Source: Heliocidaris erythrogramma
Taxonomy: Eukaryota; Echinodermata; Echinoidea; Camarodonta; Echinometridae
Direction of reading: 5' to 3'
NCBI GenBank assembly: GCA_025617745.1
Contig: CM046853.1
Coordinates: 10,928,974-10,992,973 of the forward strand
DNA length: 64,000 nucleotides
Both the position numbers and the translations under genes were made by a program. Of this stretch, positions 22,898 through 44,048 are shown one piece after another; position 1 is the first letter of the stretch; each line of letters begins with the position of its first letter. The notes under the pieces were generated by a model that ran no database searches, was not told where the DNA came from, and worked only from the letters and a program-made list of their open reading frames with translations.

Positions 22898-25800
22898 ATG
22901 TCGGGAGATCAAAGCGCAGAGAAATTGGACAACATGCTTCAGAGCATGGATAAGATCCAGATGACCCTGACACAGATTGAGGTGAATGGACGTCCAGGGG
23001 ATTCTGAGGAGTATTACGCCCCCAGAGAAGACAAACAGAAGGTATATAGCCTATTTCTTGTTGAAACTTAAAAATGCAGAGGCGTCGATGGGGGGGGGGG
23101 GGGGGGTGGTGGAGTTTCTCCCAATAATCTCAGAGCAGTGTACCATTCTGGAGAATTGCCTTTTCTATCCTGACTTCACGATGCACCTGTTAAAAGGCTT
23201 TGTATTTAATTTAACATTTATACATTATGACTCTTGCTGAATGGCTTTCAAGCATAAACAACATGCAAAGAGTATCTTTCTCTCAGAACAATTTATAATG
23301 TTATTTCCATTTGTTCATATTGCATAAGTATTATGGTGTATGTACATGTATAAGCCAACGAGGCCATTTTGTTTTTCATTTTCAGAAGGTTAAGGAAATG
23401 GAGAATAATAGTCCAGGGGTTGTTTCCGCGGGGAGTGTCCTACTAGTGTAGAGGGATACATCGTCAGGGGTATGTTGCTGATTCTTGCCAAAAAATCAAA
23501 AGGGATATCCCATAAAAAAATGTTCATCGACTTTCCTCTTTTGAAATGATCCTTTGCATGAGTCTAACATTATTTGTAGGATATACATGTAATATGATCG
23601 GAGTATTAGTTCATCTGAAGCAGTAAAAGAACAACAAGAAGAAATAAAAAAGAAGGAAGAAGAAGAAAAAGTAGAAGTAGAAGAAGAAGAAGAAGAGGAA
23701 GAAGAAGAAGAAAAAGAAAAAGAAGAAGAAGAAGAAGAAGATGAAGAAGAAGAAGAAGGAGAAGGTAAAGAAGAAGACGAAGAAGAAGAAGAAGGAGAAG
23801 AAGAAGGAGAAGAAGAAGAAGAAGAAGAAGAGAAAAAGAAAGAGAAAAAGAAAAAGAAGGAGGAGGAAATGTAGCTAGATATACCTTACGAAGAAAATAA
23901 ATGTTTAGGAAGACGGTCCTCAAAGCATTTAGCGTAAAACGAAATAATAATTTCATGAGGTATTTGTTAAATTGAGCTTGTGAGAGAAATAAATCAGGAG
24001 TTGAAAATAAGATAAGATTTAATGTAATATATTCCGTATCATATTAAATCGCGTAAAATTATGATAAGCTAGGAGAAGACAGCTACACTTTTCAATCGCT
24101 GTACGCCATATCCTTCACCCATCCCTGGAACCTGTAAAGACCTCGATCTTCAAATATTGGTGGAACTAGTAAATATATCTTTCAAACAGGGCGACAATCT
24201 TCCTCAACTGATATTATCACCCTTGACTCACGTCCTCCACCTAAACCCAGTGCCTAAATCTTGCGCATCTCGCCCAAACTTTTTGGGAGGATGTCGAACT
24301 TTGGAATCTTTCACCCAGTCGGCAACGTTTTCCCGCCAAAAGATGGAAGCGCGGGAAAGTGGCATATCCTTGTGGGGGGGGGGGGGAAGGCGCCTACAAT
24401 TAGAGCTGGGTAGTAACTAGTATAATATGAATGTTGGGGGTACAAGTTGAATAGAACTCTGAGACTAGGAGGGGAAGATATTTTTGAAAAATAAGCATGT
24501 TTGTTTGTGATTACACTTTTTACACATTTGCTAATCCTGCTATTTTTAATTTTATTGCAGTAATGACGGCAAGTTTGAATCAATGTGAATATTGATTGGC
24601 AAATAACTAGAATAAGACATGAAACAGAAATTGTGAATAAATTTTATGACACAATACTTTTGCTGGATTATGTCAGAAAATACAATATCCAAAATACAAA
24701 AAAAACCTTTTAGAACAATTAGTATTTCAATATGGCACAAAAAAGAGACATGATAACGAAGCTTTTCGACCTGCACTCATCAGGTTATCACGCAGGTATG
24801 TAACAAATTACTCGAAATCAACGATATTATACTCGATGAACAATCGCAAAGCTTGGACGAACTGTTTTTCTACACAAAAGGGGTTCGTGCGAATGATCCT
24901 TCGTGCGAAGGGTCTTTCGTGCGATCTGAAATTAGGGCAACGGGTTGCGTCCGGGTTCATCGAGTATAATATCGTTGATTTCGAATAATTTGCGTGATAA
25001 CCTGATGAGTGCAGGTCGAAAGCTTCGTTATCATGTCTCTTTTTCGTGCCATATTGAAATTTTGTAGTACCAGGAAATAATTTGTATTTCCTGGAACGAC
25101 GAGTACGTCCACACCTTTAAGAAATTATGCCTTGCTACAATATTAGCTGTGCTGATGGGCTAGTTCGTAAACCATCCATGTACCATACTGGACACTTAAC
25201 TAACTTATTAGACCTCGTAGATTCTTGAATGAATTAGAGGGGTCAGTTCCATGACTAATGAATACTGAATTTAGGCAAGGTATGCTGTGTGGAATGTTCT
25301 TGTCTAGTATCTCGGGCCGACTGGGAGGGTCATTCAGGGTTTTATGGGAAACCCAACTGCTTCTTGGTCTAATTAACGAATCCACAGGACCAGTAATTCG
25401 GACCAGACTGTCACGGGTAGAAGGATGATACCGTTCTTCGATGTCCAAACCGATTAAGGATTGGATTCCCGCCCAGGGTCAATTGCATCCTAAGGAACTT
25501 AGAAGGCGGTCCTTAATATAGTCATTCTGTTGAAGTACGGAAGCTTTTGAAAGACAATATAGTCAGGAACAGTTATTGAATGGATCAAAAGTAATAGGAG
25601 GTCATATTTAAGTATACACTGTTGGTCATAATATATAATAATAATATATGAGATTTATAAGGCTCCGAATCCACTTGATGATCAAATGCTCAAGGCGCAA
25701 CTTGTCCAAAAGATGAAATACATCACAAATAAGCAAAAGTGCAATAGGAGAGGTACGGACATGAAAGGAAATGGTAATCAATTATTATAGGCCAAATTAA

Positions 25801-43800: not shown

Positions 43801-44048
43801 GTTCAAAACCCCTCCAATCTGATAATAATTTTGTATGCAAACTTAGATGTTTTATCAGCGTATTGTGAAAATGATCCATAACTTAATTTTTGTAATAATA
43901 ATTTAGCCCTTACTCCTTTTTTTCTTCTTCCCTTGCACCTCTTTTATGTCTTCTTTTCGAACAGACGGAAGCCAGCCTCAAACCCGAGTCCAGTTCCCAT
44001 CCTTCTGGTAGCAGCAGTCAACAAACCACTGCAACATTCGCTGTCTAA
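22898..44048 (+). CDS. Atypical pentameric ligand-gated ion channel (Cys-loop superfamily)
   Basis: Ten exons join in frame to 471 residues: 22898-23041, 35261-35389, 35944-36144, 36564-36663, 38399-38556, 39046-39201, 39894-40088, 42334-42381, 42925-43125, 43965-44048. The extracellular beta-sandwich starts at [18 protein letters not shown]; the FPFD signature lies in [16 protein letters not shown]1-M4 follow, then a long tail. The first Cys of the Cys-loop is present, but the second is not at the canonical place four residues after FPFD; a Cys stands directly after FPFD instead. The M2 region ([19 protein letters not shown]) has an acidic -1' residue, pointing to cation selectivity, and Leu at 9'. 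The M3-M4 loop is very short, as in bacterial ELIC/GLIC. No signal peptide is seen. ATG 22898 is chosen for its purine at -3; in-frame ATG 22694 would add 68 residues. Ligand unknown. Confidence 0.93.
23633..23875. repeat. (GAA)n microsatellite
   Basis: About 240 bp of gaa/aag units with sporadic gta/gag interruptions; the Leu-rich minus frame is an artefact. Confidence 0.95.
24724..25060. mobile_element. 337-bp foldback MITE
   Basis: The left arm atttcaatatggcac... (24724-24845) is the inverse of the right arm ending ...gtgccatattgaaat (about 24950-25060). They share gagacatgataacgaagct, cctgcactcatcaggttatc and aacgatattatactcgatga. The core contains short cgtgcgaa repeats. No transposase; target duplication not clear. 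Confidence 0.85.
25765..27115 (-). pseudogene. Degenerate LINE reverse transcriptase (CR1/L2/Jockey group)
   Basis: Minus-strand frames in order show RT motifs: [42 protein letters not shown], the catalytic YADD ([11 protein letters not shown]), then the thumb/C-terminal blocks [43 protein letters not shown] and [12 protein letters not shown]. At least three frame breaks and a C/G-tract expansion split it, and the 5' endonuclease region is missing, so it is a dead 5'-truncated copy. It lies antisense within the first intron of the channel gene. Confidence 0.92.
27484..27790 (+). mobile_element. tRNA-derived SINE with conserved central domain
   Basis: The head carries a pol III A-box-like TGGTCTAGTGG and B box GGTTCGAGTCC within a tRNA-like fold opening ggtgtcgtggtctagtgg and closing gccgcggcac. 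A central region (ttggcaagacattaatctac, aatgggtacccggtagg) and a tail (aagcgcaatatacatg then tat repeats) follow. This head/body/tail plan is typical of SINEs in marine invertebrates; the family name was not determined. Confidence 0.85.
28590..28985 (+). repeat. Copy 2 of the three-copy ~370-bp interspersed repeat
   Basis: Same orientation and block order as 1621-1983 and 54760-55140, including ttcgggccgaacattcatgc and gattccaaaac. Confidence 0.8.
29055..29683 (+). repeat. Recent tandem duplication, period 319 bp
   Basis: The segment from tatttatttatgcatatt to cattagtgactta is present twice (about 29055-29364 and 29374-29683). I saw a single clear substitution (gtttctgactg versus gtttcttactg). 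No gene is involved. Confidence 0.93.
31386..32499. mobile_element. AT-rich 1.1-kb element with CACACAGAGAAAT termini and many sub-repeats
   Basis: The left end cacacagagaaattttta is mirrored by the right end taaatatttctctgtgtg. Inside, variants of tttacataa/ttaagtaaa recur in both orientations over the whole length. There are also a tandem run of caattcagttgcccac at about 31570-31615 and gcaagattt repeats at 32075-32100. No coding capacity. Confidence 0.75.
34875..35176. mobile_element. ~300-bp MITE with TTAAAGTG termini (simple copy)
   Basis: Ends ttaaagtgacagtaaactg and cagtttaatgccactttaa are imperfect inverses. It shares aatagcgccatcttt, tttcccatca and ttataatcttaatttag with the copy at 58062-58660. 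It lies just upstream of the channel gene's second exon. Confidence 0.75.
36697..36752. repeat. (GAT/GGT)n microsatellite
   Basis: Triplet run shortly after the channel exon ending at 36663. Confidence 0.9.
36881..36906. repeat. (CT)n microsatellite
   Basis: Perfect CT run in the intron between channel exons 36564-36663 and 38399-38556. The rest of that 1.7-kb intron shows no recognised gene; 37188-37586 holds two adjacent minus-strand frames of unknown nature. Confidence 0.85.
38523..40088 (+). CDS. M1-M4 membrane region of the channel
   Basis: Exons 38399-38556, 39046-39201 and 39894-40088. M1 is [20 protein letters not shown]2 lies in [20 protein letters not shown], with a Lys unusually deep at about 15'. 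M3 follows [17 protein letters not shown] as [12 protein letters not shown]. The M3-M4 connector is only about 20 residues (ending EKDWAKW), and M4 is [20 protein letters not shown]. Eukaryotic neurotransmitter receptors usually have roughly 70-200 residues between M3 and M4, so this architecture is closer to prokaryotic members. Confidence 0.9.
40132..40482. mobile_element. hAT-like MITE with 8-bp target duplication
   Basis: Begins caggggcggatccaggattt and ends aaatccgccactg. Exact 8-bp direct repeats gtcatggt flank it at 40124-40131 and 40483-40490, which is diagnostic of hAT-type insertion. The interior is non-coding with poly-G and poly-C tracts. It sits 44 bp past the donor of the channel exon encoding M4. 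Confidence 0.93.
42334..44048 (+). CDS. 110-residue basic C-terminal tail of the channel
   Basis: Exons 42334-42381, 42925-43125 and 43965-44048 encode a hydrophilic tail after M4, rich in Lys, Arg, Ser and Gln (for example [17 protein letters not shown]), ending in a Ser/Gln/Thr-rich stretch and ATFAV-stop. In canonical family topology the C-terminus after M4 is short and outside the cell. All three exons are phase 0 and keep the frame. The last residues fall in the first unit of a tandem repeat that runs on past the stop codon. Confidence 0.85.
42497..42605. mobile_element. Short foldback element
   Basis: The arm caagtaatttgatcctcgca...tagtttaggtttagaaata is inversely repeated as tttctaaacctaaacta...aaattatttg around an AT-rich loop. 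Probably a miniature MITE. Confidence 0.7.

Follow-up and report, generated by a model that had tools for sequence, protein, structure and literature searches.

A Cys-less Pro-loop channel subunit of Heliocidaris erythrogramma, the reversed layout of its clade and a proposed inverted membrane topology

Introduction

Textbooks present pentameric ligand-gated ion channels (pLGICs) as receptors for extracellular transmitters. A eukaryotic Cys-less clade was named by Jaiteh, Taly and Henin in 2016, with members in Strongylocentrotus, Branchiostoma and Nematostella, and its biology is called undocumented in the accessible text of that article (PMC4795631). Schistosome members of these Cys-less Pro-loop receptors were later described by Johnson et al. 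in 2023, in a text which also states that the Cys-loop pair is missing from prokaryotic pLGICs (PMC9874803). Bacterial homologues, as far as they were found by Tasneem et al., all carry a signal peptide (PMC549065, in the part available). Here, we analyzed a gene of this kind within a 64,000-nucleotide stretch of the sea urchin Heliocidaris erythrogramma (assembly GCA_025617745.1, contig CM046853.1, positions 10,928,974 to 10,992,973 of the forward strand), hereafter the window, in which positions start from its first letter.

The comparison of this gene with its relatives is best accounted for, in our judgement with somewhat better than even confidence, by an ancient clade extending from protists to echinoderms that was flipped in the membrane through the loss of its signal peptide. 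Its channels would be gated by an intracellular ligand, and the usual M3-M4 domain would have given way to two elements on the same side, an M4-extension helix and an N-terminal coiled coil.

Membership of the Cys-less clade

On sequence evidence, the window gene is a subunit of a pLGIC and a member of the eukaryotic Cys-less Pro-loop clade: the predicted protein combines the pLGIC fold and four transmembrane (TM) segments with an F/YPxD Pro loop lacking the Cys pair, and groups with the clade in the tree. It matched the Pfam ligand-binding domain (E 6.4e-13) and TM region (E 7.2e-10), and its Pro loop reads FPFD, with Cys and Leu at the canonical positions of the Cys pair. For comparison, we assembled a family set of 146 homologues plus the window protein, 137/147 of which were kept as having four placeable TMs, and a control set of nicotinic acetylcholine receptor (nAChR)-type proteins, 102/120 of which were kept by the same rule. 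Since the rows share ancestry, all counts below refer to members and not to independent events. Both cysteines of the Cys loop were present in 0/134 family rows vs. 100/102 controls.

Maximum-likelihood analysis of 48 rows gave a tree in which a branch supported at 100/97 set off the 31 Cys-less rows (echinoderm, hemichordate, amphioxus, cnidarian, mollusc, nemertean, haptophyte, oomycete and others); the outgroups comprised nine nAChR and eight cyanobacterial rows only, with GABA-A and glycine receptors left out, and some protist branches were long. A previous reading made from the sequence alone (the sequence-only reading) had likened the body of the protein to bacterial ELIC-type channels, a likeness that proved weak: the best 60 of 300 solved relatives by sequence were all GABA-A or glycine receptors, and the cyanobacterial channels group apart. 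Prokaryotic relatives were sought with one narrow family pattern against genome contigs, which returned eight stretches, none of them confirmed, and supports no conclusion.

Reversed layout and charge

The M3-M4 loop of the window protein comprises 16 residues by one rule for placing M4 and 19 by another, while the tail after M4 comprises 110–111 residues, with 21 Lys and Arg against 12 Asp and Glu over a 110-residue stretch. The short loop and long basic tail described in the sequence-only reading are thus real, and they are not a peculiarity of one gene. In the predicted proteins, the reversed layout is clade-wide, spanning protists, cnidarians, molluscs and echinoderms. Across the 137 four-TM members, the median M3-M4 loop had 11 residues (146.5 in the controls) and the median tail 54 (9.5 in the controls).

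This layout was accompanied by a reversed distribution of charge. Net charge in the window protein was -1 before M4 and +5 after it, and a net charge of at least +2 in the first 15 residues after M4 was observed in 106/137 family members vs. 4/102 controls. Mean numbers of Lys and Arg were 1.33 in the M3-M4 loop and 4.69 after M4 in the family, compared to 5.17 (long loops being counted to 30 residues) and 0.93 in the controls. A positive-inside vote covering the M1-M2, M2-M3, M3-M4 and post-M4 segments placed the side of the ligand-binding domain in the cytosol in 128/137 family members (7 ties, 2 opposite), and outside in 101/102 controls. The cytosolic vote was returned by 65/67 of the subset formed by hits 1–69 and the window protein, by 33/39 of hits 70–113, which are mostly protist or unnamed, and by 30/31 of the hits obtained with a mollusc query. 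In the window protein and in the family as a whole, the side that bears the two termini is the positive one, as expected of an inverted channel.

A stricter test compared the two flanks of M4 over windows of equal length, up to 15 residues. Here, the flank after M4 was the more positive in 130/137 family members (5 ties, 2 opposite). As a matched short-loop control, which we rate as better than the nAChRs, we used eight open reading frames (ORFs) from nine matches in 146 cyanobacterial genomes. All eight end 0–2 residues past M4, and in seven of them (L025 being the exception) the flank before M4 was the more positive. Since these short-loop channels show the opposite pattern, a short loop alone is not the source of the pattern of the family.

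N-termini and predicted structure

Signal peptides were approached through the 9-residue hydropathy peak within residues 1–45, a measure other than SignalP, in models that begin with Met and have 30 or more residues ahead of the first strand; 95 family members (42 unusable) and 73 controls (29 unusable) had such N-termini. A peak of at least 2.2 was reached by 3/95 family members vs. 42/73 controls, and one of at least 1.9 by 10/95 vs. 57/73. The window protein peaked at 0.64 by this hydropathy measure. A strong N-terminal hydrophobic stretch was detected in 7/8 cyanobacterial channels (again except L025), scored in the first 60 residues of the open frame (residues 130–190 in L022) without choosing start codons.

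None of the main texts of PMC4795631, PMC9874803, PMC11085791, PMC8634148 and PMC13335744 contains the phrase 'signal peptide', and in the open-access literature, to the extent that it was accessible and with supplements excluded, no statement was found that the clade lacks signal peptides or is inverted. The description of the gene as belonging to a poorly described animal subfamily stands in part: the clade itself has had a name since 2016, and neither its signal peptide nor its topology is taken up in the available text of the papers.

Structural features were read from AlphaFold2 (AF2) models of an Acropora member and of the Lytechinus pictus protein, which is 94% identical to the window protein in alignment A1. 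AF2 gives four TM helices that superpose on GABA-A and glycine receptors, and the ligand-binding domain keeps its canonical fold according to both AF2 and Foldseek. A single unbroken helix runs from M4 into the tail (residues 399–472 in L. pictus, 336–403 in Acropora), and a further helix precedes the ligand domain at L. pictus residues 74–99. The N-terminal helix carries a heptad pattern that few shuffles equalled (0.0045 in Acropora, 0.022 in L. pictus), while that of the M4 extension did not stand out in the same two proteins (0.12 and 0.11, respectively). The sequence-only reading had reasoned that a cytoplasmic tail would call for an inverted topology or an extra membrane crossing. An additional TM segment in the tail was rejected, as no hydrophobic window was found there and AF2 gives a helix followed by low confidence; inversion is the better supported of the two options.

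A proposed inverted topology

We infer both the topology and the cytosolic gating of these channels from the charge pattern, the N-termini and the models. The subunits probably keep four TMs and a normal fold, with a beta-sandwich ligand-binding domain and M2 lining the pore, while being inserted upside-down, and this would hold clade-wide. With no signal peptide, M1 would act as an N-cytosolic signal anchor, situated behind a folded N-terminal domain of more than 200 residues and flanked by Arg and Lys. Such an orientation would make the ligand-binding domain, N-terminal helix and basic M4-extension helix all cytosolic, with only short loops outside, and gating would depend on a ligand or partner inside the cell. 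The place of the usual M3-M4 cytoplasmic domain would be filled by the helices next to the ligand domain, and the N-terminal helix could make a five-helix bundle on the ligand domain. An acidic M3-M4 loop and a basic helix after M4 are what might be expected to evolve in a protein with both termini inside.

A route to such an inversion is suggested by work on membrane insertion: N-tails that are structured or long are beyond the capacity of the endoplasmic reticulum membrane protein complex (EMC), and Sec61 prefers to leave the N-terminus cytosolic (Wu and Hegde 2023, PMC10155758, in the accessible part). An Arg preceding M1 pairs with the Pro-loop Asp in known receptors, according to the text available of PMC4795631. 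Conserved as it is, this Arg by itself would favour the N side staying inside. In ordinary pLGICs, the signal peptide overrides the N-cytosolic preference. Taken together with the pre-M1 Arg, the preferences of EMC and Sec61 mean that losing one targeting signal could flip the whole subunit.

The cysteines of the ligand domain pointed in the same direction. Their number was odd in 59/124 family domains vs. 6/96 controls, which fits the expectation for a domain without disulfides in a reducing compartment.

Several observations weigh against inversion. Over equal M4 flanks, the nAChRs were neutral (28 more positive after, 28 before, 46 ties), so that the 101/102 obtained with these controls in the segment vote owes much to their long M3-M4 loops. 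In 16/73 controls the N-terminal peak was also under 1.9, which marks the limits of the hydropathy measure. Median M1 hydrophobicity was 1.99 in the family vs. 2.32 in the nAChRs, a mild argument against M1 as a strong signal anchor, and basic residues before M1 occur in N-out receptors too. Glycosylation sequons were considered as topology evidence and set aside as undecisive, the observed/expected ratio being 0.70 in family ligand domains vs. 0.81 in the controls; at least one sequon was present in 47/124 vs. 66/96 domains, and the commonest sequon column was used by 9/98 family animals vs. 38/102 nAChRs. The charge pattern could instead reflect a function of the tail. Finally, Johnson et al. 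treat the schistosome ligand domain as extracellular and the proteins as ordinary receptors in the text seen (PMC9874803).

Alternative explanations

The strongest competitor, which we nevertheless regard as unlikely, is a standard topology with both the basic tail and the ligand domain outside the cell. Either M1 would serve as a signal anchor of the N-out type or the N-terminal domain would be moved by an export route not yet recognised, and the tail would form an extracellular helix packed against the ligand domain. This would agree with the N-out orientation of known pLGICs, with the canonical fold of the ligand domain and its many retained ligand-loop aromatics, and with the signal peptides of bacterial relatives (PMC549065, in part). 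It sits poorly with the observation that most clade members have no signal-peptide-like stretch, and with the contrary M4 flank charge in 130/137 members, the unpaired cysteines, and the poor performance of long structured N-tails as N-out substrates (PMC10155758, as far as available).

Decidedly less probable is residence in an organelle membrane, for example the mitochondrial one, reached by another import route and exempt from the topology rules of the plasma membrane. The Arg/Ser-rich, acid-poor N-terminus of the echinoid proteins (MDLYSVSPRRQND...) would suit such targeting; however, asteroid and cnidarian members do without that extension, and their N-termini are of mixed charge.

An artefact of the gene model, with a true transcript that ends near 40088 or begins at an unseen signal-peptide exon, is very improbable: those 16 control models likewise lack a clear hydrophobic start, but tail and N-terminus are conserved among echinoids, and separate models from many phyla show this layout again, as do proteins labelled as transcripts (e.g., P0080 and P0254).

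Gene model and relatives

Read from the genomic sequence, the gene occupies positions 22694–44048 of the plus strand and consists of ten exons with AG/GT borders and in-frame joins, all in phase 0 with the sole exception of the border between exons 4 and 5:

Exon 1, 22694..23041, plus strand: start MDLYSV, residues 1–116, with a basic N-terminal extension of 68 residues and the N-terminal helix, and without a signal-peptide-like stretch
Exon 2, 35261..35389, plus strand: beginning of the ligand-binding domain (residues 117–159), recovered again when the genome was searched with the protein
Exon 3, 35944..36144, plus strand: ligand-binding domain with the Pro loop FPFDCQ (residues 160–226), the canonical second Cys missing
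Exon 4, 36564..36663, plus strand: ligand-binding domain, phase 1 at its end
Exon 5, 38399..38556, plus strand: end of the ligand-binding domain, RR before M1, first part of M1
Exon 6, 39046..39201, plus strand: remainder of M1 and the M2 pore helix (D-1', S2', L9', K15')
Exon 7, 39894..40088, plus strand: M3, acidic 16-residue M3-M4 loop, M4
Exon 8, 42334..42381, plus strand: beginning of the basic M4-extension helix
Exon 9, 42925..43125, plus strand: M4-extension helix and a conserved 21-residue stretch
Exon 10, 43965..44048, plus strand: Ser-rich end of low confidence, probably disordered, QTTATFAV and stop

The three last exons, already assigned to the tail in the sequence-only reading, join in phase 0 and close on a TAA. 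Its start at 22898, with a product of 471 residues, had to be abandoned, as 22898 is an internal Met. The start codon at 22694 lies in the same frame; an in-frame stop precedes it, and the interval contains no ATG. Annotated orthologues from L. pictus (541 residues) and Diadema antillarum (547 residues) begin at the equivalent site; the window product therefore has 539 residues.

The tail, which it had been proposed to seek in other echinoderms, is also predicted in L. pictus (P0001), with 89% identity across it, and in D. antillarum (P0002), with 63% identity and the final eight residues identical; its occurrence in both species excludes a chance origin, and its conservation down to the last eight residues indicates constraint. 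By part, identity to the Diadema protein was high in the ligand domain (89%) and the TM part (86%) and lower in the tail (63%) and the N-terminal extension (40%).

A search of the same genome with the window protein returned 18 exon-level matches, made up of the window gene, one paralogue and four weak matches elsewhere (22–26% identity). The paralogue belongs to the same Cys-less clade and lies on the same contig about 30 megabases away (C1:40925940-40930983; L016, L018-L020), with 46–62% identity by exon; it is probably the orthologue of the Strongylocentrotus purpuratus 'glycine receptor subunit beta' (P0008). At least 131 matches to the Pfam ligand-binding domain were found in this genome, and two ORFs inspected among them were nAChR-like.

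Pore, ligand site and C-terminus

Within M2, Leu at 9' was present in 137/137 family rows and Asp or Asn at -1' in 114/137, and the Asp at -1' suggests a preference for cations. Lys at 15' (window residue 348, exon 6) was observed in 132/137 clade members, where nAChRs have Leu or Phe, and constitutes a signature of the clade. The M1 proline column held Pro in 20/137 family rows vs. 102/102 controls.

Two further candidates were tried and rejected. The aromatic box was too loose to point to a ligand (Trp in loop B in 64/137 rows, Tyr, Phe or Trp in loop D in 82/137), the loop A column being misaligned. A PDZ-binding C-terminus, considered as evidence of a cytosolic tail, was undiscriminating, as the C-terminal residue was Val, Ile, Leu or Phe in 55/137 family members vs. 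41/102 controls.

Neighbourhood of the gene

The remainder of the window and the first intron contained the following features:

2761-3246 and 25778-26332, minus strand: open frames resembling by eye the ends of long interspersed nuclear element (LINE) reverse transcriptases, with zero Pfam matches
13238-13624: exon encoding a C-type lectin domain (Pfam Lectin_C, E 1.8e-5), a neighbour of the channel gene on its upstream side
17300-17728: open frame with zero Pfam matches in which a single strong hydrophobic stretch precedes a basic RRQRR stretch; it may represent the end of a gene for a single-pass receptor
23608-23868, intron 1: long GAA-rich microsatellite near exon 1
27480-27560: transfer RNA (tRNA)-like stretch by eye (box-B-like GGTTCGAGTCCC), perhaps a tRNA-derived short interspersed nuclear element
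29047-29665, intron 1: direct repeat of 300 bases in two copies, 319 bases from start to start

The copies of the direct repeat are 99% identical, which indicates a recent duplication. No tRNA genes were found in the window by ARAGORN.

Implications and comparison with known systems

If the proposed topology is true, the machine known from transmitter receptors can also read intracellular signals, and the clade would be a natural case of membrane-protein inversion through the loss of one targeting signal. A cytosolic receptor domain could, moreover, explain how the Cys-loop disulfide is dispensed with. The ligand search would change for the flatworm members, proposed as drug targets in the accessible text of PMC9874803: agonists applied from outside would be expected to fail, because the receptor domain would be cytosolic. 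Planarian homologues are linked there, by citation, to mechanosensory neurons and to seizure-like phenotypes upon RNA interference, and planarian gabrg3L-2, a possible member of the clade, is named together with pkd1L-2 in putative mechanosensory neurons (PMC8602322, in the part seen). If the topology is right, these channels may, as a guess, act downstream of a sensory receptor.

Compared to the animal GABA-A, glycine and nicotinic receptors, the window protein has the fold and the four TMs in common; its best solved relative by sequence is GABA-A beta3 (E 4.9e-17) and, by Foldseek, the glycine receptor 6vm3 (E 1.1e-21). Unlike them, the clade has neither the Cys-loop pair, nor a signal-peptide-like stretch, nor a long M3-M4 domain, and carries the added helix after M4 and the M2 15' Lys. 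The window protein itself is without the Cys pair, the long M3-M4 domain with short tail and the signal peptide of a conventional Cys-loop receptor. With the prokaryotic pLGICs (ELIC, GLIC and cyanobacterial channels), the clade shares the short M3-M4 loop and the missing Cys-loop pair (PMC9874803). These differ in having a signal peptide (PMC549065, as far as seen, and 7/8 here by hydropathy) and no tail, the reverse of the window protein on both counts, and their eight cyanobacterial rows stand apart in the tree. The closest system is that of the Cys-less Pro-loop receptors of Jaiteh et al., with which the window gene shares the Cys-less FPxD loop, the four TMs and the grouping of protists and invertebrates; to this known clade, the present analysis adds the clade-wide layout, the absent signal peptide and a putative inverted topology.

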